Positions 2,133-29,656 of a stretch of 64,000 nucleotides of DNA are shown piece after piece. Under the pieces are notes generated by a model that was not told the DNA's origin, ran no database searches, and saw only the letters and a program-made list of their open reading frames with translations. This DNA is from an uncultured Pseudomonadales bacterium. Its GTDB lineage: Bacteria; Pseudomonadota; Gammaproteobacteria; Pseudomonadales; Azotimanducaceae. The position numbers were made by a program, and so were the translations under genes. Position 1 is the stretch's first letter; each line of letters starts with the position of its first letter. Location of the stretch: positions 3,710,477-3,774,476 of the forward strand of contig OY282430.1 of NCBI GenBank assembly GCA_958296025.1. The letters run 5' to 3'.

Positions 2133-4802
2133 TCAGATCGTTGCCCTAACGCCCAAGCTGTAGCTGACGCCCGGCTTGTAGCTTTCGTACGGCAGGCCGC
2201 CTTGGGTCCATTCCACTTTGCTGTTGAGCAAGTTCTTGACCTTCAGATCCAACTCCAAGTCTCTGCTGAACAGCTCGAAGCTGTAGCGGAGCAGGAAGTC
2301 GAGTTCGCCGTTGGCCTCCTCAACGATGTTCGGGGCGTTCTCCGCGCCCACTAGGATGATGCGCTCCCCGGTGTGGTTGTAGGCCAAGGAGCTCTCGATG
2401 CCGCGGCCGTAGTTGGCGTAGGTGAGGATCAGGTTGCCCAAAACGTCGGACTGGCCGGTGAGGTCGCGCTCGTTCTCGAACAGCTGGGCGATGCGGCGGG
2501 CGCCGGTGACGGGCACGTCCGCCGGACTCTCCCCGGCGCCGAACAGCACCACGCTGGAGCGGATGAAGGAGACATTGGCGTTCAAGGTGAAGTGGTTGAA
2601 GGCTTCGCTCCAGCCGAACCATTCGGCGAAGGGCAGATCCTTGCGCAGCTCCAGCTCGATGCCGTCGAGTTCCGCCTCCTCGCCGTTGAACCAAGTGTAG
2701 ATGTCGTTCTGCGCCTGCACCTTGCCGATTTCGATGGGGTCGTCGAACGTCTTGCGGAAGACGCCAAGGGAAAGGCTGTCCGCGGCGCCGAAGTACCACT
2801 CCAAACGGGCGTCCAGGTTTTGCAGGCTGGCCGGCTGCAGGAACACGTTGCCCCGGTAAAGGTTGGAGTCCTCCGGGTTGCGGATGGTGGTGCCGGTGAT
2901 CTCCAAGAGGCTGGGGCGGTTGACGGTCTCGGAGTAGGCCAAGCGCAACTGCAGGTCGTTGACGAACTCGAAGGTGAGGGAGGCCGCCGGCAAGGTGTCC
3001 TTGTACTTGCGCCGCACGTCGTTGCTGGTGCCGGCCTCCGTGTTGCCGCCGTAGGCATCCGCTGACAGGGTGGTCTCCTCCTGGCGGACCCCCACCGCGA
3101 GGCGAATGCGCGAAGTGATTTGCGCATCGATCCCACCGTAGTAGGCGGAGGTTTCCTCCCCGGAGTCCGCGAACGGGAAGATGCCGCTGGCGTTGGCGGC
3201 GCCGGCGGAGAAGTCCCGCACGTCCAGATAGCGCTTGCCCCAATTGTCCAGCCCGAAGAGCTGCTCCGGCGTCATCAGGCCGATGTGGCTGGGCGCAAAG
3301 GAGGTCAGGTCGAAGCGGAAGAAGCGGGAGCGGCTGGCGCGGGTGCGCTCGTAGTTGGACCAGCCGGCCTTGACCGTGACGTCCATGCCGCCTAGGGCAA
3401 AGGGAACTTCGGCATCGACTCCGTATTCCTCGATTTCGTCCCGCAGTTTGGAGAAGGTCCGGTCCGGCGCCTGAAACACCTCGCGCAGGTCTCCCTCCGC
3501 TTGGCGGCCCGGGGTGACCACCTCCTCCAAGCCTTGGGCGTTCTGGGCGTAGGTGTAGGTGCGGGTGTCGGGTGCGTCACGGGTGGCGGCCCCATCCACC
3601 GCCCGCCAAGCCACGCGCATCTGGTCAAAGCCGCCGATGTCGAAGTAGTGCTCTCCCTTCAATTGGGTGGAGCGGATGTAGTTCTCCGTCCATTGCAGGC
3701 GGTAGCTGACCACCTCGGTGCCGGAGGTGACGTCGTCCTCGCTGGAAAGACCGCGGAACTGCTGGGTCTCATCGTCCGTTTGCCGCAGGATCACTTGGGA
3801 GAACTGCACGGAGTGGTTGTCGTTCAGCTCCAAACCGAGGTTCAGGAAGCCGCTCCAGTTGATGGTTTGGCGGGTGGTGAACTGCCGGTAGTCCACCGTC
3901 TGGGTGCTGCCGCCATCGACGCCGGTGAACTCGTAGCGGCGAAAGTCCTTGTCGCGGTTCTGGTAGTCGTTGCTGTACTTGCCGGCCGCCAACACGCCCA
4001 GGGACATGCCGTTGTTGAAGTCGTAGCGGTAGCCGCCTTCGGCGTCCCCGGTCCAGTTAGGCTTCAGCTTGTCTTTCTCGCGGATGTGCCAGAAGTTGTA
4101 GAAGCTGGCCCCCAAGCCGGCGCTCTGCGGCCAAGGCGTGGCTTCAAACTGCTCGCTGGTCAGCACCTTGACGTTGTCCGGGATGTTGCGGGTGCCGTCG
4201 TCGAAGCCCCAGTTGTCGCTGCCGCCGCCGTGATAGGAAAGGCCGTCGCCGCCGGTGGTCTGCGAATTGCCGCCGGCCTGCACCTTCACGGAGGCGTAGT
4301 TCTCCTCCGGCGTCGCCTTGGTGCGAATCAACACCACGCCGCCGCTGAAGTCCCCGGGATAGGAGGGGGAGAAGGTCTTCTGCACCAGCAGGCTGCGCAC
4401 GATGCTGTTGGGCACGATGTCCAGCGGCACCGTCTTCTGGAAGGGCACCGGCGAGGAGATGCGGGCGCTGTCGAGCAGGGTCGAGGAGTACCTTTCCCCC
4501 AAGCCCCGCACATAGACGTATTTGTCCCCCACCAGGCTCAGGCCGGTGACGCGGGAGAGCGCATCCCCCACGCTGGTGTCCGCCAGCAGCGACAGCGCCT
4601 CCGTGTCCAGGAGGTTGGAGACTTCCGAGGTGGTGCGCTTCTCGTCCGGGATGAATTTGCCCAGGACGATGACCTCCTCCACCACTGCGTCGGTCGGCGC
4701 CGTTGCCGCGCCTCCTTCAGCCTCTTGGCCGTAGGCGGTTCCGGCGAGGGCGGCAGCCGCCGCCAAGGCCGCCCAAAGCCGGAGTGGCAGGTTGTATTTC
4801 AT
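2133..4802 (-). CDS. TonB-dependent outer-membrane receptor
   Basis: This 889-residue receptor has a Sec signal peptide (residues 1-25, cleavage after GTAYG), a TonB-box-like stretch EEVIVLG near residue 40, and a plug domain with GDALSRVTGLSLVG and YVRGLGERY. A long beta-barrel follows, ending in YSLGVRATI, an aromatic/hydrophobic C-terminal strand typical of outer-membrane proteins. The ATG at 4802 starts directly at the signal peptide; a 30-residue upstream extension is rejected. It should import a ligand across the outer membrane using TonB/ExbBD energy. It lies 50 bp downstream of a giant lipoprotein gene on the same strand, probably one operon under the PhoB-like boxes at 8.84-8.87 kb. 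The substrate is unknown; a phosphorus-containing ligand is inferred only from that control element. Confidence 0.93.
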   Translation of the reverse strand: MKYNLPLRLWAALAAAAALAGTAYGQEAEGGAATAPTDAVVEEVIVLGKFIPDEKRTTSEVSNLLDTEALSLLADTSVGDALSRVTGLSLVGDKYVYVRGLGERYSSTLLDSARISSPVPFQKTVPLDIVPNSIVRSLLVQKTFSPSYPGDFSGGVVLIRTKATPEENYASVKVQAGGNSQTTGGDGLSYHGGGSDNWGFDDGTRNIPDNVKVLTSEQFEATPWPQSAGLGASFYNFWHIREKDKLKPNWTGDAEGGYRYDFNNGMSLGVLAAGKYSNDYQNRDKDFRRYEFTGVDGGSTQTVDYRQFTTRQTINWSGFLNLGLELNDNHSVQFSQVILRQTDDETQQFRGLSSEDDVTSGTEVVSYRLQWTENYIRSTQLKGEHYFDIGGFDQMRVAWRAVDGAATRDAPDTRTYTYAQNAQGLEEVVTPGRQAEGDLREVFQAPDRTFSKLRDEIEEYGVDAEVPFALGGMDVTVKAGWSNYERTRASRSRFFRFDLTSFAPSHIGLMTPEQLFGLDNWGKRYLDVRDFSAGAANASGIFPFADSGEETSAYYGGIDAQITSRIRLAVGVRQEETTLSADAYGGNTEAGTSNDVRRKYKDTLPAASLTFEFVNDLQLRLAYSETVNRPSLLEITGTTIRNPEDSNLYRGNVFLQPASLQNLDARLEWYFGAADSLSLGVFRKTFDDPIEIGKVQAQNDIYTWFNGEEAELDGIELELRKDLPFAEWFGWSEAFNHFTLNANVSFIRSSVVLFGAGESPADVPVTGARRIAQLFENERDLTGQSDVLGNLILTYANYGRGIESSLAYNHTGERIILVGAENAPNIVEEANGELDFLLRYSFELFSRDLELDLKVKNLLNSKVEWTQGGLPYESYKPGVSYSLGVRATI

Positions 4803-4852: not shown

Positions 4853-7800
4853 CTAGTTGCTGCTGACGCCAACGGTCCAGCCGCGGCCCCAATTGCCCAC
4901 ATCCGAGCCGCTTATGGTGCTGCCGGCCTCATCGAACCGGGCCGGCAGGGACACCGGCGTCGGGGTGCCGTCGCCTTGGATGACGTTGGCGGCGCCGTTC
5001 AGGAACGCCTGCACCGCCGCCACGTCATCGCCTTCGGCCACCGTGGTGCAGTCCAAGCCCACCCCGGCGAACGTGATGCGGGTGTTCAGCAGGTTCAGGG
5101 ACTCGCCTTGGACGCGCAGGCACTTTTCGGAACCGGACACCCTGGAGTTGTAAAGGTGCAGGCCTGTGCCGCGGCGCAGGCGGATGGCCCGTTCGCCGGG
5201 GTTGCCCAGAATGGTCATGTTGGCGATGTGGGGTTCGGAAATCGGCGTGGCCTGCTCGTCGCCCTCGCGGTTGTCCGCCTCGATGCCGTTGTCCCCGGCG
5301 GAACTGCTCTGCTGAATGTGCAGGTACTGAATGCCGCCCCGCCAGCCGTCGGTCCAGTCCAGGCTGTCGTCGGCGTTGCCGACCAGTACCACATGGGAGG
5401 CGTTGACAGTGCCGCCGAAGAACTCCACGCCATCGTCCAAGTTGTTGTAAACCTCGATGTAGTCCACCGTGGTGCCGCTGCCCACGCCTTGGAAGGCGAT
5501 GCCGTTCAGTTGGTTCTCCGAATCGACATTGGCGCCGGCGTACTTGACTACGACGTAGCGCAGGGTGCCGCTGCTGTCGTTCGGGTCGTCCCCACCGAAC
5601 AGGCCGGAGTTGGCCTCGCCCTCCTTGGTGCATTGGGCGGTGCCGCCAGTGGCGCCTTCGGGACAGTCGTTGATGGGCGCATAGCCGTTGATGACCAAGC
5701 CGCCCCACAGCCCTTGGGTGTTTACCGGGTCGGCAATGTCGCCGTTTACGTCCTCCACCGCGGTCATGGTGATGGGTGCATTCCGTGTGCCGTTGGCTTC
5801 AATCCGGGAGCCTCGAGAGATGACGAGGAAGTCTTCCGGATCATCGCCGATGATGGTGGTGCCGGACTCGATGTTCAACACGCCGGAAGCCGCATCGCCG
5901 CCCACCCTAACCTTGCCGTCCAGGATGTAGTAGTGGTTGCGGGTCAAGGTGAGGTTGCCGGTGATGGTGCCGGACATCTGGCAGGTCTGCCGATCGTCGA
6001 TGGCGGCAATTTCGGTGGTGCCCACGGGGCAGTCGAAGTCCGTTGCCACGTTGGGCATGCCGACGGTCCAGCCCAAGGTCCAGTCCTCAGCGGCGTTCTG
6101 CACCGCGCCGATGAAGTTGGTCGGCTCGAACAGGGCGTCGCCGGACAGGTCCGCGGCGCTGACCACCTGGCCCGTGGTCGATACGTTGCTGTCGCCAAGC
6201 AGATTGTTGATGGCGCCGGTATCGTCGCCCTCCACCACGGTGGAGCAGTCGAAGCTGACGCCATCGAACTTGATGCCGGTGCCCAATTGATTCAGGGAGT
6301 CCCCCTGCACCCGCAGGCACCGCTCGCTGTCCTGCACCACGGAGTTGTAGAGCTCAAGACCGGTGCCGCGGCGCAGCCGAATGGCCCGCTCCCCCGGATT
6401 GCCGGACAGGGTCATGTTGGCGATGCGCGGCAGGGAGCGCGGTTCGGCGGCCTCGTCCCCCTCCCGGTTGTCCGCCTCGATGCCGTTGTCCCCGGCGGCG
6501 TCCGCTTGGTCGATGACCAGATATTGAATGCCGCCCCGCCAGCCATCGGTCCAGTCCAAGGAGTCGTCGGCGTTGCCGGTGAGCACCATGTGCTTGGCGC
6601 TGACCGTGCCGCCGAAAAACTCCACGCCGTCGTCCAAGTTGTTGTGGACTTGGACGTAATCGACTTCTGTGCCGGCGCCCACGCCTTGGAAGGCGATGCC
6701 GTTCAGCTGGTTCTCCGGGTTGACGTTGGAGCCGGCGTACTTGATCACGACGTAACGCAGGGCGCCGCTGCTGTCGTTGGGGTCGGCGCCGCCGAACAGG
6801 CCGGAATTGGCCTCGCCCTCCTTGGTGCATTGCGCCGTGCCGCCGGAAGCGGCTTCCGGGCAGTCGTTGATGGGCGCGTTGCCATTGATGACCAAGCCGC
6901 CCCACTCGCCGCGGGTGCTGACGATGTCCGCCTCCCCGGTCAGGTCGGAAAGGCTGGTCAGGGTGACTGGCGCCGTGCGGGTGCCGTTGGCGACGATCCG
7001 GGACCCACGGGAAATCACCAAGAAGTCCTCGTCGGTGCCGCCGTAAATGGTCGTCCCAGCCTGTGCTGTCAGAGTGGCGGATGCCTCGTTGTCGCCGCCG
7101 ATGACCACCTTGCCCACCAACTCGTACAGGTTGTTGCTGGTCAACAGCAGGTCGCTGGTGATGGTGCCGGTTAGCTGGCAAACCCGCATGCCGTCCAAGG
7201 TGCGGCTGGAGACCGTGGCGCCGTCCGGGCAGCCGAAGTCCCGCTGCATGGGTTGGCTGACGGAATTGCGGTAGGTCCAGCCGGCAGCCCAGTTTTCAGC
7301 GCCGAAGGCGCCGATGTAGTCGGTGTTGTCAAAGAAGGTGTCGCTGATGCCCACCGGCGTCACCCGGTCGCCGTTCTGCGACACATTGACGGCGCCGTCC
7401 AAATACGCCTGCACGGCGCCGTCGCTGTCCCGATCATGGGTTTGGGCGCAGGCGAAGCTAACGCCCTCAATGGTTAGGTCGGTGCCAAGCAGATCACGGC
7501 TGGCGCCGTCCACCCGGATGCAGCGCTCAGAGCCGTCAATGAAGCTGTTGCGCAGCGCCAAGCCAGTGCCGCGGCGGAGGCGCAGGGCGCGCTCGTCGGG
7601 TTTGCCGAGAACGCTCATGTTGGCGATGGTCGGGTTGGAGCGCGGCATGGCGCCTTCGTTGCCTTCGCGGTTGTCCGCCTCAATGGCGTTGTCGGCGGCG
7701 TCGGTCTGCTCGATGTAGAGGTATTGAATGCGCCCGGTCCAGCCGTCCGTCCAGTCCAGGGAGTCGTCGGCGTTGCCGGTGAGCACCACATGCTTGGCGT

Positions 7801-8737
7801 TCACCGTGCCGCCGAAAAACTCCACCCCGTCGTCAAGGTTGTTGTGGACCTGAACGTAGTCCACCGTGGTGCCGCTGCCCACCGCCTGGAAGGCGATGCC
7901 GTTCAGCTGATTCTCCGGGTCCACGCTGGAGCCGGCGAAGCGCACGCTGACGTAGCGCAGCACACCGGAGTTGTCGCTGCCGTTGGCGCCGCCGAAGACG
8001 CCGGAGTTGGCCTCCCCCTCCTTGGTGCAGGCATCGGTGCCGCCGTCAGCCCTTTCCGGGCAGTCGTTGATGGGCGCGTAGCCATTGATGACCAAGCCAC
8101 CCCAAAGCCCCCGGTCATTGTTCTCCACATTGCCCAGCACTTCCCGCTTGGCGGTGAAGACGATGGGCTGCTCCATGCTGCCTTCCGCCATCAGGGCGCA
8201 GCCTCGGTCGATCACCAGAAAGTCCGTCGAACTGCCGCCGACGACCACGCCACCAGCGGCCACTTTAAGCTGGCAATCCGGCAGGTCGCCGCTGCTGCTG
8301 GGGGATGCGCCTTCCGGCGGGGACACGCGGGCGGCGCCGCCGGAAATCTCGAAGATGTAGTCATTGCCGAGCACTAGGCCGGTGGGGTCAAGCACCCCAT
8401 CGGTCAGCGCCGCCACGTCGATGGTGTAGATGGGCTTGCCGCCGAAGCCGGCGTCCGCCGTCGCGCCGGAATCCGTGATGGCGGACTGCAGGTGGGTTGG
8501 GATCACCGTGGCCACGGTCATGCCGTCGCCGCCATCGCCTCCGTCTCCTCCATCGCCATCGTTCCCATCATCCCCGTCGTCCCCATCGTCACCGTCGTCG
8601 CCATCCCCGCCGCCTTCGACAGGCACCTCTATCACTACGGAACCGGGCGAAGCATTGTCCGATGAGCCGCCGCAAGCGGCCAACGAGAGCGCAGCAAACC
8701 AGAGCGCGGCAATCCGGCAGAAACTTTCCACAGTCAT
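4853..8737 (-). CDS. Giant outer-membrane lipoprotein with three tandem ~400-residue repeats
   Basis: The 1294-residue precursor begins with a lipoprotein signal (SLAAC, lipidated Cys22). Residues ~43-72 are an Asp/Gly-only spacer. Three tandem copies of one module of about 400 residues follow. Each module carries WGGLVINGxAPINDCPE, CTKEGEANSG, ENQLNGIAFQ, NNLDDGVEFFGGTV, NADDSLDWTDGW and IEADNREG, in that order. The composition (Gly, Asn, Asp, Val, short repeated turns) suggests right-handed parallel beta-helices; this is inference. Paired cysteines recur in each module. The ATG at 8737 is set by the signal peptide and a GAGGAG ribosome-binding site just upstream. Being lipidated and encoded directly before a TonB receptor, it is probably the surface ligand-capture partner of that receptor. 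Function is unproven. Confidence 0.92.
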   Translation of the reverse strand: MTVESFCRIAALWFAALSLAACGGSSDNASPGSVVIEVPVEGGGDGDDGDDGDDGDDGNDGDGGDGGDGGDGMTVATVIPTHLQSAITDSGATADAGFGGKPIYTIDVAALTDGVLDPTGLVLGNDYIFEISGGAARVSPPEGASPSSSGDLPDCQLKVAAGGVVVGGSSTDFLVIDRGCALMAEGSMEQPIVFTAKREVLGNVENNDRGLWGGLVINGYAPINDCPERADGGTDACTKEGEANSGVFGGANGSDNSGVLRYVSVRFAGSSVDPENQLNGIAFQAVGSGTTVDYVQVHNNLDDGVEFFGGTVNAKHVVLTGNADDSLDWTDGWTGRIQYLYIEQTDAADNAIEADNREGNEGAMPRSNPTIANMSVLGKPDERALRLRRGTGLALRNSFIDGSERCIRVDGASRDLLGTDLTIEGVSFACAQTHDRDSDGAVQAYLDGAVNVSQNGDRVTPVGISDTFFDNTDYIGAFGAENWAAGWTYRNSVSQPMQRDFGCPDGATVSSRTLDGMRVCQLTGTITSDLLLTSNNLYELVGKVVIGGDNEASATLTAQAGTTIYGGTDEDFLVISRGSRIVANGTRTAPVTLTSLSDLTGEADIVSTRGEWGGLVINGNAPINDCPEAASGGTAQCTKEGEANSGLFGGADPNDSSGALRYVVIKYAGSNVNPENQLNGIAFQGVGAGTEVDYVQVHNNLDDGVEFFGGTVSAKHMVLTGNADDSLDWTDGWRGGIQYLVIDQADAAGDNGIEADNREGDEAAEPRSLPRIANMTLSGNPGERAIRLRRGTGLELYNSVVQDSERCLRVQGDSLNQLGTGIKFDGVSFDCSTVVEGDDTGAINNLLGDSNVSTTGQVVSAADLSGDALFEPTNFIGAVQNAAEDWTLGWTVGMPNVATDFDCPVGTTEIAAIDDRQTCQMSGTITGNLTLTRNHYYILDGKVRVGGDAASGVLNIESGTTIIGDDPEDFLVISRGSRIEANGTRNAPITMTAVEDVNGDIADPVNTQGLWGGLVINGYAPINDCPEGATGGTAQCTKEGEANSGLFGGDDPNDSSGTLRYVVVKYAGANVDSENQLNGIAFQGVGSGTTVDYIEVYNNLDDGVEFFGGTVNASHVVLVGNADDSLDWTDGWRGGIQYLHIQQSSSAGDNGIEADNREGDEQATPISEPHIANMTILGNPGERAIRLRRGTGLHLYNSRVSGSEKCLRVQGESLNLLNTRITFAGVGLDCTTVAEGDDVAAVQAFLNGAANVIQGDGTPTPVSLPARFDEAGSTISGSDVGNWGRGWTVGVSSN
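4900..8330 (-). repeat. Three-fold internal ~1.2-kb coding repeat
   Basis: The codons for the DWTDGW motif recur near 5345, 6543 and 7743, a period of about 1.2 kb (about 400 codons). Flanking motifs stay in register for most of each unit. The units are clearly diverged at both DNA and protein level, so this is an old triplication rather than an assembly artefact. Modules 2 and 3 (C-terminal) resemble each other more than module 1, for example sharing DGWRGGIQYL and GGTAQCTKEGE. Confidence 0.9.
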
Positions 8738-8837
8738 GAATTCTCCTCGATTATCGGGGACACGCCATGCCAACCAGTCCAGAAAAAGCTGGTTTCAAGC
8801 CCGCATGCACCGGCAAGCTATTCAGGACAATTGAAGA

Positions 8838-8869
8838 ATTCGTGACGATTCGGTGACGTGTTCATGACA
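8838..8869 (-). promoter_or_regulatory. Triple PhoB-like box upstream of the lipoprotein/receptor operon
   Basis: Read on the minus strand, three direct repeats with an exact 11-bp period are visible: GTCATGAACAC, GTCACCGAATC and GTCACGAATTC. Their GTCAY cores lie at 8868-8864, 8857-8853 and 8846-8842. PhoB binds tandem 11-bp units built on (C)TGTCAY plus an AT-leaning spacer, which this matches well. The array lies about 105 bp before the ATG at 8737, a normal place for a PhoB-activated promoter. No sigma-70 -35 box is evident, as expected when Pho units replace it. It predicts induction of the operon under phosphate limitation. Confidence 0.65.
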
Positions 8870-9051
8870 TTCCCAAGCGCACTGCCGCCTCTAACCCGTC
8901 ACGCCTGCCCAAGGCCGGGAAGTAGGCTGGCCGCCGCCCCAAGCCCCAAGCCCAAGACATCCTAGGCTGCAACACCCACCTGCGGGCGGCTGGATAGGGT
9001 GGTCAGCACACTCCGGTCGAGCTGCGCCCCGAAAAAAGTGGAAAAAAGTGC

Positions 9052-22387: not shown

Positions 22388-23620
22388 ATGCCGAAAGCGC
22401 GAAAACGCCGCAATCCTTTCACCCCAGGGGACGGCGCACTGCCGCCCTACCTGGCCGGCCGCGAAAAGGAGCAGGCCGCGTTGCTGCGCATGGTGCAGGA
22501 CGTAGCCTCCGGGTATGTTCCGCCGCACAACGTTCTCATATCCGCGCCGCGTGGCAACGGCAAGACGGTTTTGCTGCACTGGACGGCCAACCAAGCGCGG
22601 GAGCGGGGAGTAAACGTCGTCATGGCCTCAGCATCCGAACTTCGGAGTGCCGCGGCGCTGATGCGGGCCACCTTGGGCAACACGGCGGCGGAGTCCGCCC
22701 AAGTCCGCACTGGTCGCACACTGGGCGCCAAGGCCGGGTTGACCGCCAATTTGGCGCATGAGTCCACTATGGCAACACCCCCTATGGGGGCCTATGAGTG
22801 GCGGCTGGCCCTGACTGAGGCATACCGGCAAAAACCGCTCCTTTTGATTGTGGATGAAGGGCATTTGCTGCCTGCCGAGGTCGCCAATCTTCTGTTTAAC
22901 GCCAGCCAATCCATTCGGGGTGAGGGTGCGCCCTTGCTGCTCGTTGTCGCCGGAACGCCGGACTTGGAGGATGCGTTGGCGAAAGCGGATGTTTCATTCG
23001 GAGACCGCTTGGGTGCGGATGGCGACCTACGACCCGGCCTGTTGGACTGTGCTGCCGCCGGCACCGCCGTCAGTGTGCCCTTGCGTGAACAAGGCATCGC
23101 CGTTGACAAGGATGCTTTGGACGCCATTGTCGAGAACGCTCAGGGCTACCCCTACTTCCTGCAGCTATGGGGGCAGGTTGCCTATGAGCAGTTGGCTGAA
23201 GGCAGTGAGCGCATGACCCTTGCACAGGTCCAACAAGCCTTCCCAACTGTGCAAGAGACTCGTTTGCAATACTACGGCCAACGGCTGCGCGAAATTCAAC
23301 AGGCGGACATGATGGACATCTGCGCCCGCTTCGCCCGCGACATGGCGCAAAGTGAGCAATCCGGCGACCTAGCGCAACTGAAGGACTGGGACGCGATGCG
23401 CAGCATTCAGGCCGCTCTGCAAGCAAAGGGTGTGCAAGCCGACACGCCGGGCTGCGCCGCCGTGCAAGACGCCATGCGCCGCATCAAGCACTGGGGCTTT
23501 GCCGTGCCCAGCACCGACCTGGCCCACTGGCTGCCCGGCATCCCCAGCCTGATGGCGCATGTGCAACAACGCGCCGAAGATGCAGGAATTCTGCCACCGC
23601 AGCCGTCCGCACGGGGCTAG
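22388..23620 (+). CDS. AAA ATPase of unknown function (member of a facing paralogous pair)
   Basis: This 410-residue ATPase has the order GREKEQAALL (24-33), Walker A APRGNGKT (53-60), Walker B LLLIVDEGH (151-159) and the sensor-like VVAGTPDL (187-193). A helical C-terminal half has GYPYFLQLWGQ and ends in a winged-helix-like stretch (RIKHWGFAVPST, GIPSLMAHV). The lid and wing resemble ORC/Cdc6-like or STAND-type ATPases. It starts 28 bp after hppA, so it may be read through from that gene. It faces a related ATPase on the other strand with only 35 bp between stops. No partner effector domain is visible. DNA binding or defence is possible but not shown. Confidence 0.85.
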   Translation: MPKARKRRNPFTPGDGALPPYLAGREKEQAALLRMVQDVASGYVPPHNVLISAPRGNGKTVLLHWTANQARERGVNVVMASASELRSAAALMRATLGNTAAESAQVRTGRTLGAKAGLTANLAHESTMATPPMGAYEWRLALTEAYRQKPLLLIVDEGHLLPAEVANLLFNASQSIRGEGAPLLLVVAGTPDLEDALAKADVSFGDRLGADGDLRPGLLDCAAAGTAVSVPLREQGIAVDKDALDAIVENAQGYPYFLQLWGQVAYEQLAEGSERMTLAQVQQAFPTVQETRLQYYGQRLREIQQADMMDICARFARDMAQSEQSGDLAQLKDWDAMRSIQAALQAKGVQADTPGCAAVQDAMRRIKHWGFAVPSTDLAHWLPGIPSLMAHVQQRAEDAGILPPQPSARG

Positions 23621-23655
23621 AGTGTGGCTGGGAAGCATAAGTCGGGACGCTGGGG

Positions 23656-24861
23656 CTAGTGCCTCAATCCCTGCTGCCCGGCAGGTCCGGGAATGTTTCG
23701 CCTGATGTTCGCCATGAGGCTGGGAATGCCTGCCTCCCATCTGCGCCCGCGTTGCTCGTCGTCGCTCCGCACCTGCGGGGACGGCCAGACCAAGCCGCAG
23801 TGCTTTAGCTGGGTCAACGCCTGCTGCACATTCGCATCCGTCGCCTTGTCGCCCAAGGCGCCCCGCACGGCGTATTCCAGCGTGTGTTCGCTCACCCTGT
23901 CATCGGGCTTCCCGTATAGAGCGGCCACGGTACCGACGACGGCGCTCAGCCCAAGTTTCTTCAACTCTGCCCGCCGTTCATCGTAGTAGGACGTGCGCAC
24001 AGTCGCCGCCTCATGCATGGCCTCCCGGAATTGACCCTCGGACAAGGCTGTCGTCCCTGCCCTGTGCGCCGTCAGCCACAACTGCTCGCCCCATACTTGG
24101 ATGAAGAACGGATACTCCTGGCATTCGGCCAACGCTTCCCTTTCCTGCCCCTCCGAAAGGCGAACGTTGGCATCCTCCAGCGGCGGGACGAGAGCCTCGC
24201 GCGCGCCGGCGGGCGGCAACCTCCCCACAAGCAGCTTTTTCGATCTTGACGCGAAGGTGGCGTTCATGTCATTGACATGGTCCACTAGGTCCGGCGTGCC
24301 CGCCAACACCAGCATGATGCGGTGGTTGGGCGCCAGTTCCTGCCAAGCGTTGAACAAGGCGCACCCCATGTCCACGTCCAGCGTGTGCGCCTCGTCGATC
24401 AGCAGCGCGTAGGCGCTGCCCCCGCGGCACTGCGCCCGCAGCACGTCATGCGGAGTCAAGTCGGAAGGTGGCGTCGGGTTGGTGCGCCGATGCGCCTTGC
24501 GGATGCTTTCTGCCCCCTTGCGCAGCAGATGACCCCATCCGTTCGGCGACAGCGCGTCCATCGCGTGAAGCCCGCTCAACCTCCTTGCTGACAGGCGCAC
24601 CACCTGCAAGTCCTTCCCCATGCTCGCCTTCCGCCATGCCTCTTGGAGCGCATCCTCGAACCACAGCAGCAGGCAGGTCTTGCCGTTGCCCCTAGGGCCC
24701 GTGACCAAAACAGGTGCGCTTGTCCCTCTCGGCGCATCCTTGCGCAGCAGCCTGGAGGCCACAAGGCGCAGGCTCTCCTGTTCCCTCTCCCGTCCACCCA
24801 GCAGGGGCGGCCGTTGGCCCGGCCCTGGTTGGAACGGGCAAAAATCGTCTTCAAGACTCAT
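23656..24861 (-). CDS. AAA ATPase of unknown function (second member of the facing pair)
   Basis: This 401-residue protein is a paralogue of the ATPase at 22.4 kb. It shares, in order, GGREREQESL (22-31), Walker A GPRGNGKT (55-62), Walker B ALLIDEAHTL (152-161), LVLAGTPDLV, EYPFFIQVWGEQLW and the terminal GIPSLMANI. Similarity is spread over the full length but is low between motifs, so the two diverged long ago and probably have different partners or roles. The ATG at 24861 is preferred; five extra codons upstream are possible. Upstream lies ~0.7 kb of structured non-coding DNA. Convergent neighbouring paralogues of this kind are unusual. Confidence 0.85.
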   Translation of the reverse strand: MSLEDDFCPFQPGPGQRPPLLGGREREQESLRLVASRLLRKDAPRGTSAPVLVTGPRGNGKTCLLLWFEDALQEAWRKASMGKDLQVVRLSARRLSGLHAMDALSPNGWGHLLRKGAESIRKAHRRTNPTPPSDLTPHDVLRAQCRGGSAYALLIDEAHTLDVDMGCALFNAWQELAPNHRIMLVLAGTPDLVDHVNDMNATFASRSKKLLVGRLPPAGAREALVPPLEDANVRLSEGQEREALAECQEYPFFIQVWGEQLWLTAHRAGTTALSEGQFREAMHEAATVRTSYYDERRAELKKLGLSAVVGTVAALYGKPDDRVSEHTLEYAVRGALGDKATDANVQQALTQLKHCGLVWPSPQVRSDDEQRGRRWEAGIPSLMANIRRNIPGPAGQQGLRH

Positions 24862-25133
24862 GGTCAGGCGTTGCACTACTTGGGAGGGGCATTACAGGAT
24901 CAAAAATCCTACCCCCCGAAATCCCAGACCCAAACCCCCAAAGCCAGATCACCAAAGCCATCGGCTTCCTAGTCTCCTGCGGCGAAGCCAATTGATCCCG
25001 AAAGATGTGCAACACCAATTCCGGCAAGTGCGGTCTGGCGAAGCCAGAGGCGCAAAGCGCACTTCGGCAAATCGGCAAATTCGCCCCTTGGTTTTTGGGT
25101 CCGCGCAAAATCCTTCCATCATCGATGAGGAAG

Positions 25134-25345
25134 CCGAAGGGCGCCAAACGAAGGCCCTCCGGAGATTACACGTCTAGGCTGGAAGACACCATACGGAGGC
25201 CCAGGAAGCTGCCGCGTCAAGGCTGAAAGGTGCCTAAACCATTGGATCCGTTGGCCAACCGCGCCGAAAGGCACCATACGGAGGCCGCCAGCGTTGCTGC
25301 ATCATGGCCGAAGGGTACCATAGGTTCAGGAGTGCGTTGCCGCGG
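25134..25345. repeat. Degenerate tandem repeat, five units of about 43 bp
   Basis: Units begin near 25134, 25178, 25222, 25263 and 25307 with GCYGRARGG, best followed by CACCATACGGAGGCC. That 15-mer is exact at 25187-25201 and 25272-25286, while units at 25222 and 25307 carry degenerate forms. Starts are 41-45 bases apart. The 'spacers' are unrelated. The decay is too strong for a working CRISPR array. Confidence 0.6.
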
Positions 25346-25421
25346 GAAAGCAGACTGTGAAAGTCTGCGCAACGTGCCGGCACTTACTTTCTTCAAAACG
25401 GGACATTACTGCCCCGGAACG

Positions 25422-25474
25422 GCCTAGACTTGAGAAACCAGGCCGCCACGGTCAACGCAGGCCCAAGTCTAGGC
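25422..25474. repeat. Perfect 11-bp inverted repeat
   Basis: GCCTAGACTTG at 25422-25432 is exactly reverse-complementary to CAAGTCTAGGC at 25464-25474, with a 31-base interval. It can form a long hairpin on either strand. Confidence 0.7.
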
Positions 25475-25501
25475 GATCCTGCAAGCGCCGGTCAACCCGA
25501 T

Positions 25502-25527
25502 AATTCCTTGTCAATCGTCAAGGAATT
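25502..25527. repeat. Perfect 9-bp inverted repeat
   Basis: AATTCCTTG (25502-25510) and CAAGGAATT (25519-25527) flank an 8-base loop. There is no T tract behind it. It could be an operator or an RNA hairpin. Confidence 0.65.
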
Positions 25528-25593
25528 CCGCAGATCGCAACCCCGAAGCACTATCACGCATGGAAGCCGGCCCTAGGCTGGCGCGGGCAAGTC

Positions 25594-25791
25594 ATGGTGT
25601 CCGCTCCGTTGACCAAGGCCGAAATCAAGCGGCAGGAGGCCAGAGGCAGCAAGCGGTTTGTTCGCCGATGGTTCCGGACCCAACAGGCTGCGCACATCGC
25701 CTTGCGGCGAGCCGTTGACCAAGGCGGCCACGTGCGCGAATGCGACCTTGGCGACAACTGCCCGGAGAGGCCCCACATCATCGCCAACTAG
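25594..25791 (+). CDS. Small hypothetical protein, doubtful
   Basis: This 65-residue ORF starts with ATG and is rich in Arg, Lys, Gln and Ala (KAEIKRQEARGSKRFVRRWF), ending CDLGDNCPERPHIIAN. I do not recognise a family and the ribosome-binding site is weak. It shares the 14-mer CCGTTGACCAAGGC twice internally with the terminase gene at 27.9 kb. It may be a remnant of phage DNA or not a gene. Confidence 0.3.
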   Translation: MVSAPLTKAEIKRQEARGSKRFVRRWFRTQQAAHIALRRAVDQGGHVRECDLGDNCPERPHIIAN

Positions 25792-25865
25792 CGGGTTTCA
25801 CCCCGAAACTGTCAAAACCCGCCGAAATCAGGGTTTTTTGGCCCCTAGGCGGATACATCGCCTCT

Positions 25866-25955
25866 CTAGGAAGCCCGTAGCGCGGTTTTCAGGGCATACC
25901 CTATGGCCTTTTTTTGGCATAGGGTCAGTTCAGCGCCCGTCAGAGGGCTTCCTAG
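25866..25955. repeat. 90-bp nested palindrome
   Basis: The outer arms CTAGGAAGCCC (25866-25876) and GGGCTTCCTAG (25945-25955) are perfect over 11 bp. Inside, ACCCTATG (25898-25905) pairs with CATAGGGT (25918-25925) around a loop containing seven T. It lies directly behind the stop of the minus-strand Cys-rich gene. It may be a bidirectional termination structure or a small non-autonomous element. Confidence 0.65.
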
Positions 25956-25960
25956 TGCGC

Positions 25961-26296
25961 CTAAATCCGAACTATCCGCCAGCGGTGAGGATGTTCAGGG
26001 CCGACCAGGTTTGCGCAGAATCTCCCACTGACACCCGTCAACACACAATCGCTTATTCTAGGAGTAGCAATCGTGCGACAGACAAGGTCAGGGTCAGACC
26101 CTTTGTGACAAGCGTGACCCTTTGCCTCCACCCAAAAACGCCCGCCGGCGTAGGTGCAGGAATCGCCGGGGCCCAACTCCAGCCCGACAATGCAGGTGGG
26201 GGGGTCAGTCCCTTGCGGGCTGGCGTACCCTGTCACGGCAGCCAAAGGCAGGGCGACGATGAGCGCCAAGATTCGCGCAATCGCATAGTTGGGCAT
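25961..26296 (-). CDS. Secreted Cys-rich protein, tandem copy 1
   Basis: This 111-residue precursor has a signal peptide (MPNYAIARILALIVALPLAAVTGYA). The mature part carries CIVGLELGPGDSCTYAGG, FWVEAKGHACHKGS, DCVL, FCANLVG and the ending HRWRIVRI, with about seven cysteines that should form disulfides. The LGPG(D/E)SCTY...FWV...FCAN...WRI pattern is a small beta-rich secreted domain that I know only from uncharacterised bacterial proteins. A GAGGAG site precedes the ATG. It lies 429 bp downstream of a near-copy on the same strand; the copies share the 5' leader, signal peptide and most Cys positions. Confidence 0.75.
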   Translation of the reverse strand: MPNYAIARILALIVALPLAAVTGYASPQGTDPPTCIVGLELGPGDSCTYAGGRFWVEAKGHACHKGSDPDLVCRTIATPRISDCVLTGVSGRFCANLVGPEHPHRWRIVRI

Positions 26297-26365
26297 GAGT
26301 AGCTCCTCAAGTGGTTTCCTGTCCGCATATTAGCGCCGGTGAGGGCAGCCGCCTTCACCGTGCGC

Positions 26366-26725
26366 CTACATCCCATCTATCCGCCAACGGTGAGAATCTT
26401 TGGCGACCGGGTTTGCGCAGAATCCCCTGCAAGTCCCTTGTGCGCACCTTAGATCCAACAACACACAGTCGCCCACACGGTCGCCGGTAGGACCATTACA
26501 TGCAGTTCCTCGATCTGCCGAGCTAGACCCCTTGTGACAAGCGGAACCATAGGCCTCTACCCAAAAACTCCCGCCGTCGTAGGTGCAGGACTCGCCGGGG
26601 CCCAACTCCTGCCCGACACCGCAGGTGGGGGGTTCAGTCCCTTGCGGGCTGGCGTACCCTGTCACGGCAGCCAAAGGCAGGGCGACGATGAGCGCCAAGA
26701 TTCGCGCAATCGCATAGTTGGGCAT
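26366..26725 (-). CDS. Secreted Cys-rich protein, tandem copy 2
   Basis: This 119-residue precursor has the same signal peptide as its downstream copy, residue for residue over the first 25. The mature part shares CGVGQELGPGESCTYDGG, FWVEAYGSACHKGS and FCANPVAKDSHRWRI. An 8-residue insertion with extra Cys (LLDLRCAQGTCRG) is the main change. The ATG at 26725 follows the signal peptide and has GAGGAG upstream; the longer ORF start is rejected. The leader DNA (CTCCTCAAGTGG and on) is shared with copy 1 apart from a 3-bp insertion. The pair arose by a recent tandem duplication and is diverging in the mature part rather than the signal peptide. Confidence 0.78.
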   Translation of the reverse strand: MPNYAIARILALIVALPLAAVTGYASPQGTEPPTCGVGQELGPGESCTYDGGSFWVEAYGSACHKGSSSADRGTACNGPTGDRVGDCVLLDLRCAQGTCRGFCANPVAKDSHRWRIDGM

Positions 26726-26861
26726 GAGTAGTAGCTCCTCAAGTGGTTTCCTGTCCGCACAGTCTCCGTTACCCATCCAGCCCGGTCAACCAAAACGGCA
26801 TAGCCTGCCGTTTTCTGGAAGTCCATAGGTTTCCCCGCACCCGCAGGGAGCGTTCGGCGCG

Positions 26862-27038
26862 TCAACGGTATTTGGGGTTGTATTCCTTAGGCCCCTGCAG
26901 AATTTGGACGTCTCTACCGTACTGACCTTTCAGCAGCTCAATCGCATCTTGATAACTTCGGGCCGTGACTACGACCTCAACCGCGTGATTCATTTGGGCA
27001 TTTCGTATCATGGCCTTGAAGTGCTGCACTTCAAACAT
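26862..27038 (-). CDS. Tiny protein, divergent paralogue of the gene at 27183
   Basis: This 58-residue protein reads FEVQHFKAMIRNAQ, then VEVVVTARSYQDAIELLKGQYG and a short polar tail. It shares the pattern V-x-V-A/V-A-x-S-x-x-A-x-E-L-x-x-x-QYG-x-x-V with the next gene on the plus strand. The ATG at 27038 has AAAGGA upstream; a 20-residue extension is rejected. The fold is probably a small beta-alpha-beta unit. I know similar short proteins only as hypothetical proteins of mobile elements. The starts of the two genes are 144 bp apart and divergent. Confidence 0.6.
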   Translation of the reverse strand: MFEVQHFKAMIRNAQMNHAVEVVVTARSYQDAIELLKGQYGRDVQILQGPKEYNPKYR

Positions 27039-27182
27039 GGGTTTTCCTTTTGCCGGATGGGTTGCGGCAATGTAAGACCGCTTGCGCAGGAAGGTCAAGC
27101 CAGAATTGCGCCGAGACGGCTAGACTCCGGCCACCGGCAGGCCTACAATAAATGCTCGCTCACCAACAACGAGGAAACAGGG

Positions 27183-27389
27183 ATGGCTAATCCGCCAGGA
27201 CCACATGGGGCTGTTTTCTATGCGAAGATTCGGATTCCAGGGAGATCAGGAAACGCCCTCTCTGTCCAAATCGTTGCCAAAAGCAGCCAGCACGCGAAAG
27301 AACTTTTTAGGGCGCAATACGGCAGCAATGTCAGTTTTCAGATGTTGCCTAGACAGGAAGTGAACAATAAACCCCCGCCAGGGTGGTAA
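27183..27389 (+). CDS. Tiny protein, divergent paralogue of the gene at 26862
   Basis: This 68-residue protein has FYAKIRIPGR, LSVQIVAKSSQHAKELFRAQYG and NVSFQMLPRQEV, matching its neighbour over about 40 residues. The ATG at 27183 follows GAGGAAACAGGG, a good ribosome-binding site. The residues kept between the pair (hydrophobic strand, Ala/Ser, AxEL, QYG, V) look like a fold core, which supports both as real genes. Function unknown; a shared 144-bp intergenic promoter region suggests co-control. Confidence 0.65.
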   Translation: MANPPGPHGAVFYAKIRIPGRSGNALSVQIVAKSSQHAKELFRAQYGSNVSFQMLPRQEVNNKPPPGW

Positions 27390-27518
27390 CCGCCTCTTTC
27401 AGCACGGGCATGGGCCACCCGGCTTGAGCTCCCTTCCATCGATACCGCAGCCCCAACTTTCGCCCGCGTAATTTTGTCTCAACAGTCCTCTTAGGCAAAA
27501 GGTGCCTTTGAGGATTGG

Positions 27519-28265
27519 ATGGGTGATCGAAAGGCTTACCAAGCGGCTTACTACCAGCGGAACAAGGGCAGGCTGAACGCCAGGAAAGCCGCAGCCCGCC
27601 GCACAACAAAGGCTGCCAACGGCAGCGCCAAGCTCAACGCTCCGAAGTTCACCGGCGCAAAGGCCGCCAAGGCCATATCCGACTGGAGCGCCCGAAATCT
27701 TGTTGTCCCAACACCCCCCCGACAAGGGGAACCCTTCCGCTTGTCGGGTTGGCAATCGTCTTGGCTTCAAGACGCATTCGCTCCGGGCGTCAAGGAGGCC
27801 GCGCTGTCGATAGCCAGGCGCAACGGCAAGTGCTTCCTAATCGCCGTTGTGTTGCTCGCGCACCTATGCGGGCCGTTGACCAAGGCGAACTGGCGGTCAG
27901 CCGTCGTCAGCTTGACCGGCAAGCTCGCATCCGAACTGCGGGAGGCCGTTCGCCAGATTGCCGAAGCAAGCGGCTTGGCCGATGAAATCGAAGTGGGGGC
28001 CAGCCCGGTTCCGGGCTTCATATTGGGCCAGCAGGGAACCCGCGTTGACATTCTCGCAGCCGACAAGTCAAGCGGACACGCCATCGGCATTGACCTTGGC
28101 GTTTGCGACGAGACCGGCTTGCTTGAAAACGGCCAACTCTACAACTCACTGCTTTCAGCCACAGGCGGAAGGGACGGCAGGGTTTTCTCGATCAGCATCC
28201 GGGGAGACAGTGAAATCTTTGAGCGCATCCGTGAGCGCAGGGAATCCCCGGCCGTTTACTGGTAA
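27519..28265 (+). CDS. Phage terminase large subunit, truncated ATPase half
   Basis: This 248-residue product looks like the N-terminal ATPase half of a Terminase_1-type TerL. It has FRLSGWQSSWLQDAF (usual RPWQ..W region), then IARRNGKC at the Walker A position and DLGVCDETGLL at the Walker B position, then VFSISIRGDSEIF, a stretch common after the ATPase core. Walker A has Cys where Ser or Thr is needed. The protein stops after RRESPAVYW, and the C-terminal nuclease domain is absent, so intact TerL length (about 500-600) is not reached. It is probably a dead prophage remnant. It opens with a Lys/Arg/Ala-rich stretch. Confidence 0.7.
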   Translation: MGDRKAYQAAYYQRNKGRLNARKAAARRTTKAANGSAKLNAPKFTGAKAAKAISDWSARNLVVPTPPRQGEPFRLSGWQSSWLQDAFAPGVKEAALSIARRNGKCFLIAVVLLAHLCGPLTKANWRSAVVSLTGKLASELREAVRQIAEASGLADEIEVGASPVPGFILGQQGTRVDILAADKSSGHAIGIDLGVCDETGLLENGQLYNSLLSATGGRDGRVFSISIRGDSEIFERIRERRESPAVYW

Positions 28266-28468: not shown

Positions 28469-29656
28469 TCAAGGCAGCAGCGGGCTTGTCTTGGCCTTGG
28501 GGAAGTTCTTCACCCGCTCAAAGAAGGTGGTTTGAGTGATCTCGGTGGGCCACTCTAGGCGCAGGTCCACCCAAAAGCTGTTGTTGGCGTCCCGTCTGAA
28601 GGTCACCGCCGTTAAGTGTTCGAGCTGGCTTAGATCCCTGACGAGAGCATGAACAGGATTTTTCAACGCATTATAGAATTGTCGGGTAGCCGCTATTAGG
28701 GCGCTTAACTCCATCGAATCCTCCCGCAGCAGCAGCTTCAGAATCTCGATTTGGCGCTGGGCGATCACCCGCTTCCTTTTGCTCTGCAATCTGTGGAAGA
28801 GGTCGTACATGGCATCCCGGAACAGCGCCTTTGAGACTTGGGTGCGAATCTCGGCGGACAGCCGTTTGCACTGGAGCGCGATTCCCTTGAGGCCGAGGAC
28901 CAGAAACGGGGTGAGGTCGTGGTTCCGCCGTCGCACCTCCGCCAGCGCGGCGAGATAGTTGTTCTTCTCGTCGTAATAGTAATTGGACATGGCAATGAAC
29001 AGCGCGTCGCGCAGGCCGGCGCGTTGCAGCATCAGGGCCTCCAAGGCCCTTGCCGTTCGCCCGTTGCCGTCCAGAAAGGGATGCATGGCCGCGAAATGGT
29101 AGTGCAGTGCCAAGGCTTGAATCAGCGGATCGTGCTGCAAGTATGGGCCTTGCGCCGCCTTGATGAGCTGTGTGAACGCCTCCACGCACTCGCCGCCGCC
29201 GGCCACGCCCCTGTGCCTTGGCGCACCGAAAGTCACGTTCTGATTTCGCCGCCGGAGTTGGCCGGGCGGACAGTGGTCGTCGTCCGCGTCGGTCACGATC
29301 AGCCGATGAATGTGCTGAATCAAGTCGGCATCGATGGGCGGGGCGCTGGGTAGCTGGGCAATCCAGCGATAAGCCTTGACCGCAGCGCGGGCCTGCCGTT
29401 GCGACCGGGTGAACTGCTCGTCCGGCGTTTCGTCGAGCGCCGCGTCAAGCTCGCGCTCCGTAAAGTCGGCCCCTTCGATCCGGGATGTTCCGGCGACTTC
29501 CCGCTTGAGTTGGATGGCTTGCAGATCCTCCACCCAGCTGCGCTGATAGGGCAGGTCGGTGAGTGCCTGCACCCGCGCCTTCGCTTCGACTAGGGGAGCA
29601 AAGATCGCTTGCGAATCGTAGTGAATCCAGTGCCGTGGAGTGCCGTACTTGATCAT
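28469..29656 (-). CDS. Fic family protein with N-terminal inhibitory helix
   Basis: This 395-residue Fic protein has the active loop HPFLDGNGR (192-200) and an inhibitory motif TSRIEG (57-62) ahead of it, class II architecture. The C-terminal ~130 residues are helical and include a probable winged-helix (QIEILKLLLREDSMELSALI). It is unlike the Fic protein at 0.7-1.8 kb in its ends, so the two are separate acquisitions. It should AMPylate a protein target in the cytoplasm; the target is unknown. The region upstream is AT-rich and carries a 17-bp direct repeat, a possible operator. It sits at the far end of the accessory segment, next to pfp. Confidence 0.9.
   Translation of the reverse strand: MIKYGTPRHWIHYDSQAIFAPLVEAKARVQALTDLPYQRSWVEDLQAIQLKREVAGTSRIEGADFTERELDAALDETPDEQFTRSQRQARAAVKAYRWIAQLPSAPPIDADLIQHIHRLIVTDADDDHCPPGQLRRRNQNVTFGAPRHRGVAGGGECVEAFTQLIKAAQGPYLQHDPLIQALALHYHFAAMHPFLDGNGRTARALEALMLQRAGLRDALFIAMSNYYYDEKNNYLAALAEVRRRNHDLTPFLVLGLKGIALQCKRLSAEIRTQVSKALFRDAMYDLFHRLQSKRKRVIAQRQIEILKLLLREDSMELSALIAATRQFYNALKNPVHALVRDLSQLEHLTAVTFRRDANNSFWVDLRLEWPTEITQTTFFERVKNFPKAKTSPLLP

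Follow-up and report, generated by a model that had tools for sequence, protein, structure and literature searches.

A putative Pho-box-controlled operon for a triple-module lipoprotein and a TonB-dependent receptor in an uncultured Pseudomonadales bacterium

What is captured, and under which conditions, by a lipoprotein that carries three copies of one large module and is encoded beside a TonB-dependent receptor? The question is raised by an operon in a 64,000-nucleotide stretch of DNA from an uncultured Pseudomonadales bacterium (contig OY282430.1 of assembly GCA_958296025.1; the window hereafter). A first-pass annotation had placed the operon at coordinates that hold up; it gave no strand, and all parts of the operon are on the minus strand. 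The reading that we favor, with a probability of about 0.6, is that the operon serves scavenging at the outer membrane during phosphate starvation and is of the type represented by ElpS, a surface lipoprotein of Caulobacter crescentus. The two genes are:

2133..4802, minus strand: TonB-dependent receptor, 889 residues, same operon (Pfam barrel and plug; adjacency in relatives)
4853..8737, minus strand: triple-module lipoprotein gene, 1,294 residues (open reading frame, start-site reading, module alignment, hidden Markov model domains)

The longest reading of the lipoprotein frame, 4853-8773, begins at a TTG codon, and the ATG at 8737 is the likely start. Translation from this ATG gives a lipobox cysteine at residue 22, followed by three cysteine-containing modules of about 400 residues each, which at the DNA level repeat with spacings of 1197 and 1200 bp. 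Relative to module 2, taken as reference, identity is 56% for module 1 and 65% for module 3, and the cysteine pattern NDCP...C-TKEG...E(R/K)C...C is present in every one of the three. The receptor gene follows after 50 bp, a gap in which no terminator-like site was found. The receptor matches the Pfam barrel family (E 1.1e-27) and the plug family, scores 240 bits against TIGR01782 (under the cut-off of 310), and has no relative at E ≤ 0.001 in a single-sequence search of the PDB. The triple lipoprotein and its pairing with a receptor in one operon, as first annotated, are thus both borne out, and the pairing recurs in relatives: a TonB receptor, called by phmmer at 50 bits or more to the window's receptor or that of locus L065, is encoded on the strand of the module frame and no more than 400 bp from it in 111 of 116 loci. 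Of the five loci lacking it, three are cut by a contig end, one (L067) retains just 305 bp, and one (L153) belongs to a genome in which it is the second copy. Receptor pairing is a trait of the family.

The case for phosphate control begins upstream of the start codon, where the first-pass annotation had described three GTCAY units in 11-bp phase. These are present about 105 bp upstream of the ATG, as GTCAT-N6-GTCAC-N6-GTCAC at 8842-8868 on the minus strand, and a fourth, degenerate unit can be added:

8831..8868, minus strand: Pho-box array, units GTCAT, GTCAC, GTCAC and degenerate TTCAA in 11-bp steps (sequence, genome search, conserved footprint, spacing enrichment)
8814..8820, minus strand: TAGCTTG block, possibly the -10 region (similar block in most of 10 aligned upstream regions)

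A whole-genome pattern search, used instead of a weight matrix to compare the site with genome background, found the exact triplet once in 3,915,453 bp and the reversed control pattern not at all. Neither this search nor the receptor neighbours of homologues refuted the first-pass reading. The two-unit pattern is found nowhere else in the window and gives two overlapping matches at this site; shuffled windows gave a mean of 0.30, and one of 100 reached two. The stricter two-unit pattern TGTCAYN5YGTCAY occurs twice genome-wide (reversed control, once), and its other occurrence, antisense inside a 369-residue open frame, was rejected as a promoter. No consensus sigma-70 promoter was found upstream of the lipoprotein gene. 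In an alignment of 10 upstream regions, the four 11-bp units and a TAGCTTG-like block are retained in most close relatives, and the sequences flanking them diverge.

The spacing of the units was then counted in the loci in which a start could be assigned by the lipobox rule (102 of 116, window included; 14 had no such start, and a few assigned starts are doubtful). Exact GTCAY-N6-GTCAY lies within 300 bp upstream in 27 of the 102, and each of twelve other spacings (2 to 14) gave 0-3 matches in the same loci. About 0.65 loci would be expected by chance from the box density in these loci, with the boxes themselves included in that density. The loci are kin and not independent observations, and we therefore attach no p-value to the enrichment. 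The exact two-unit box is present in 15 of 28 loci of the triple-module clade and in 12 of 74 elsewhere, and it recurs in both gamma- and alphaproteobacterial relatives. The cultured gammaproteobacterium NOR5-3 (L019) combines the triple form with an exact box, and the Seongchinamella loci L024 and L027 have no exact box.

The regulator is also encoded. One PhoB above the curated cut-off was found in the window genome, with PhoR adjoining it. In four of eight phoB loci from the same genus (L190, L191, L195, and L198) the exact box directly precedes phoB, and since it does so, the Pho-box consensus, judged from these sequences, is in use in the genus. Across the window's GTDB family, PhoB (E ≤ 1e-85) is encoded by 14 of the 15 genomes that have the module and by 2 of the 10 that do not (Fisher p = 3e-4 by genome; 7/8 versus 2/9 by genus, p = 0.015). 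The only genus member lacking the module, G002, also lacks PhoB at this threshold. In two of the three relatives at order level that have the module (L186 and L187), the module and receptor genes adjoin phoBR; in G037, the third of these relatives, as also within the family, module and phoB matches are on different contigs or far apart. With the conserved footprint, PhoB in the genome, and the boxes before phoB in the genus, the predicted phosphate control of the operon is well supported by sequence, as the first-pass annotation had supposed.

What the lipoprotein displays under this control was approached through its domain structure:

8672..8737, minus strand: signal peptide and lipobox LAAC, followed by GG, with Cys22 (translation)
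8522..8671, minus strand: conserved stretch SPGSVVIEVPV, then a Gly/Asp-rich tether with 9/18-bp tandem repeats (sequence)
8324..8521, minus strand: N-terminal cap region, overlapping the start of module 1 as drawn by the hidden Markov model
7256..8476, minus strand: module 1 (hidden Markov model domain)
6047..7246, minus strand: module 2, modelled alone (alignment, structure model)
4859..6043, minus strand: module 3 (hidden Markov model domain)

Module 2 is predicted with high confidence to form a right-handed beta-helix (mean pLDDT, the predicted local distance difference test score, 96.8; predicted template modelling score 0.94). Six acidic residues that form a ladder on the model are invariant in all 121 aligned modules, the alignment consisting of 118 of 170 relative modules retained by an 80% identity filter plus the window's three. 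Ladder residues of module 2 are D205, D206, E209, D228, D231, and E257. Known families offered little by way of a name. The lipoprotein gave no credible Pfam or NCBIfam family, and no SusD-family match in Pfam, at E up to 1; a Pfam FeS match was taken as spurious (20.6 bits against a cut-off of 23, over 12 residues). Searched at E ≤ 0.01, the 121 modules gave only one weak Beta_helix match and one GlmU match. In the PDB, the lipoprotein had no relative at E ≤ 1 by single-sequence search, and the 121-row profile gave only GlmU and DHFR matches at E 0.13 or worse. Structure comparison by VIA-align covered the chains ranked by Foldseek, which leaves room for families outside that ranking. A family that has no Pfam or NCBIfam model is hereby tied to phosphate control in Gammaproteobacteria, and gains a fold prediction as well as a candidate site whose residues do not vary.

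Between anchor and modules, relatives keep the same order: a conserved SPGSVVVEVPV-like stretch after the lipobox, a variable linker, and a conserved N-terminal cap region. The linker is composed of GDD, PEPEP, GGGT, DPT, or poly-S in different relatives. In L024 and L027 (Seongchinamella), L025 (Haliea), and L031 (Pseudohalioglobus), the signal, tether, and cap form a gene of their own, and the triple-module gene lies directly downstream with its own signal-like N-terminus. Because its composition varies among relatives and the anchor part is a separate gene in these four loci, the linker is probably only a tether. The Gly/Asp tether, encoded by 9/18-bp tandem repeats at window 8523-8605, has a different length in the near-identical relative L003.

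Module number varies within the family. Among 75 contig loci, drawn from the best 80 of 117 confirmed stretches, 25 have three modules above 100 bits, 42 have two, and eight have one, several of them being cut by contig ends. The module was found in 51 of 398 sampled phylum genomes, of which only the window genome shows three modules; at most four candidate stretches were scored per genome, a limit that could hide a larger array or a second copy. Regions were taken from 39 of the 50 genomes with a match other than the window's, and their 40 loci comprise 21 with two modules and 19 with one. Counts are affected by contig ends or broken frames at L008, L012, L029, L032, L033, L034, L043, L060, and possibly others. 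All triple-form records among the loci examined are gammaproteobacterial (labelled Pseudomonadales, Pseudomonadaceae, Halieaceae, or other Gammaproteobacteria); L030, from Candidatus Azophilus and also in Pseudomonadales, has the triple form as well. In a FastTree phylogeny of the 121 modules, the positions of the triple form make up three clades: position 2 is pure (17 of 17), the 17 position-1 modules all share a clade with 19 members, and the 19 position-3 modules all share one with 21, with L028, L029, and L033 supplying the extras. Two-module proteins often carry modules that are more closely related to each other than to any other module. The triple form therefore looks like a single old expansion with fixed positions, and in two-module proteins doubling looks to have been repeated, or the copies homogenised; deep nodes of the tree are weakly supported. 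The pair of modules in L028 falls with positions 1 and 3, which suggests that this protein lost the middle module. Module count (one, two, or three) is thus offered as a testable variable in outer-membrane phosphorus scavenging.

The first-pass annotation knew of no named system with this architecture. That holds for the triple form within the literature searched, since no description of a multi-module ElpS was found in open-licence PMC articles; it does not hold for the kind of system, whose relatives are published. In Caulobacter, ElpS (CC0170) is reported to be produced under phosphate starvation and to lie at the surface; its shedding depends on the type II secretion system (T2SS), and supernatants show a raised alkaline phosphatase activity that is associated with it (PMC2996285). 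The published gene order runs cc0170, cc0171, cc0172 onward, with Hyphomonas neptunium named; a T2SS cluster beside the pair is given for Caulobacter, Xanthomonas, Sphingomonas, and Hyphomonas, and cc0170 homologues are reported in Shewanella and Xanthomonas (PMC2996285). As in the window, the ElpS gene lies beside that of a TonB receptor, CC0171. In contrast, ElpS is about 50 kDa, and for that reason probably one module, whereas the window protein has three, and the window pair is not beside a T2SS cluster. Homology of the window module was established to lipoproteins in ElpS-like gene order at L065 (Hyphomonas), L145, and L148, and by analogy of gene order the window lipoprotein may be placed in the ElpS family.

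A second set of relatives comes from Flavobacterium johnsoniae. The FI, FII, and FIII lipoproteins (PUSIII, PUSIV) are reported to be strongly induced by depletion of inorganic phosphate; FI and FII are encoded with TonB-dependent transporters, FII within a phoBR cluster; and the proteins share 31-36% identity with ElpS and give polygalacturonase-like models (PMC8115612). They belong to Bacteroidetes whereas the window protein is gammaproteobacterial, and the two are likened here by description. SusCD/PusCD systems likewise combine a surface lipoprotein with a TonB transporter and have forms known from phosphate depletion, but PusD proteins carry pf07980 and pf14322 (PMC8115612), whereas the window lipoprotein has no match of this kind and is predicted to be a beta-helix. 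The window operon is best seen as an enlarged relative of a known kind of system (ElpS and the Flavobacterium proteins). New within the literature searched are the triple architecture, the fact that a single clade conserves it, the predicted fold bearing an acidic ladder that does not vary, and the Pho-box link in Gammaproteobacteria.

Gene order, predicted fold, conservation, the Pho-box footprint, and PhoB in the genome, together with the phosphate-starvation induction demonstrated by others for relatives and the surface exposure demonstrated for ElpS, which may extend to the window protein by analogy, are consistent with the following scheme. At low phosphate, active PhoB would bind the array at 8831-8868 and switch on lipoprotein and receptor together. 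Its lipid and a flexible linker of low complexity would keep the lipoprotein at the cell surface, where it would display three right-handed beta-helix modules. The acidic ladder of each module may be a metal-dependent site that captures a phosphorus-containing or polymeric ligand, and the presence of three modules would benefit capture. The ligand or its product would be handed to the adjacent receptor, with import energised by a TonB system. Phosphorus capture is our best reading, put forward as a hypothesis, and an enzymatic role is its strongest rival.

Several observations weigh against this scheme. The exact two-unit box is absent from 75 of the 102 loci, including 13 of the 28 in the triple-module clade, and Pho control in this organism is predicted from sequence. 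The exact box is also absent before phoB in four of the eight same-genus loci, among them that of the window genome, whose 15-kb phoBR region yielded no exact Pho box. In the order outside the family, PhoB is present in 12 of 13 genomes and the module in only three; the presence of PhoB therefore does not entail that of the module. Sites that bind phosphate are not typically acidic ladders, and the invariant residues do not resemble a site that binds phosphate directly. The connection to ElpS was drawn from gene order, size, and the Flavobacterium paper. In Caulobacter, the receptor gene cc0171 is reported as constitutive and its deletion did not abolish ElpS production; intracellular phosphate was unchanged on a shift to poor medium, as measured by an insensitive method; and ElpS is released by proteolysis (PMC2996285). 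Since ElpS is shed, a cap that stays on the surface can be only part of the picture.

The strongest rival, which we consider possible at clearly lower odds, is that the modules are enzymes, beta-helix hydrolases or lyases with the ladder as catalytic site, which would cut a phosphorus-bearing or phosphate-masking polymer and leave import of the product to the receptor. By prediction, the window module shares the right-handed parallel beta-helix with pectate lyases and polygalacturonases (GH28, PL), but no signature of these families was found for the window lipoprotein in Pfam or NCBIfam.

It is rather unlikely that the lipoprotein instead assists secreted phosphatases, the accessory role suggested for ElpS with its associated phosphatase activity in supernatants (PMC2996285), and that the receptor handles other cargo such as a metal cofactor. 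T2SS genes do adjoin the pair in many relatives (the genes run lipoprotein, receptor, gspC, gspD, gspE at L065, Hyphomonas johnsonii, and also at L148), and in Caulobacter the T2SS is reported to belong to the PhoB regulon (PMC11208175). Receptor pairing is nevertheless nearer to universal than a nearby gspD homologue, which was found in 13 of 40 loci from phylum genomes and 26 of 75 contig loci, both counts being limited by the flanks, so that a T2SS neighbourhood is hardly family-defining. Moreover, no T2SS gene was recognised by eye among the open reading frames around the window operon, and GspD is encoded elsewhere in the genome.

A lipoprotein-receptor pair for metal acquisition, with Pho control secondary or lineage-specific, is less probable still. 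The site is acidic and metal-like. LipL48 of Leptospira may be a member of the window lipoprotein family. As in the window, LipL48 shares one operon with a TonB receptor, but it is reported as PerR-regulated, with a suggested metal-related role (PMC7567364). Against metal acquisition, Pho boxes recur in both gamma- and alphaproteobacterial relatives, and the Flavobacterium relatives, induced by phosphate depletion, are tightly repressed under nitrogen and iron limitation (PMC8115612). That the Pho-box likeness is mere chance is very improbable, for although the genome has a single clear site and two-unit matches do arise in shuffled and reversed controls, the spacing-specific enrichment in relatives and the conserved four-unit footprint speak against chance.

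The capture reading can be extended to phosphate uptake as a whole. The window genome, rated 96.7% complete, has no PstB over the cut-off, no match to the PstS family TIGR02136 (the one PstS family searched; no symporter search was made), and no PHO4/Pit match. Seven of nine genus genomes lack PstB over the cut-off, the other two being G004 and G005. In many relatives the gene after phoR encodes PstB, which was not found in the window genome. At G000:C1:1578000-1593000 (L109), a cluster of DUF3450, ExbB, ExbB, ExbD (as a frame only), TonB, and tetratricopeptide repeat (TPR) genes lies beside phoBR, a layout like that of Vibrio TonB2 systems. The triple-module lipoprotein and its receptor might then be the main phosphorus entry, by TonB-driven, metal-bridged, three-site capture that replaces Pst and is energised by this cluster. 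We regard so complete a scheme as doubtful, with only a small chance of being right. Much of the family has this cluster next to phoBR, whether or not the lipoprotein is encoded (L193, from G019, has the cluster in a genome that lacks the module), and its link to the lipoprotein is therefore weak. A PhoBR genome with no detected Pst provides a clean setting in which to study the role of TonB-dependent phosphorus uptake.

Some further observations were made along the way. L054, labelled Verrucomicrobiales, is a two-module locus whose signal peptide and scores look the same as those of the alphaproteobacterial L053, and it may be a binning error, and G044 has three further weak partial matches in another frame. 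Elsewhere in the window, 668-1849 and 28469-29656 (both minus strand) encode two Fic-type proteins, the first with Fic and DUF4172 domains and the second recognised by eye; 22388-28265 contains two convergent AAA-type ATPase open reading frames followed by a phage-terminase-like fragment at 27519-28265, also recognised by eye.

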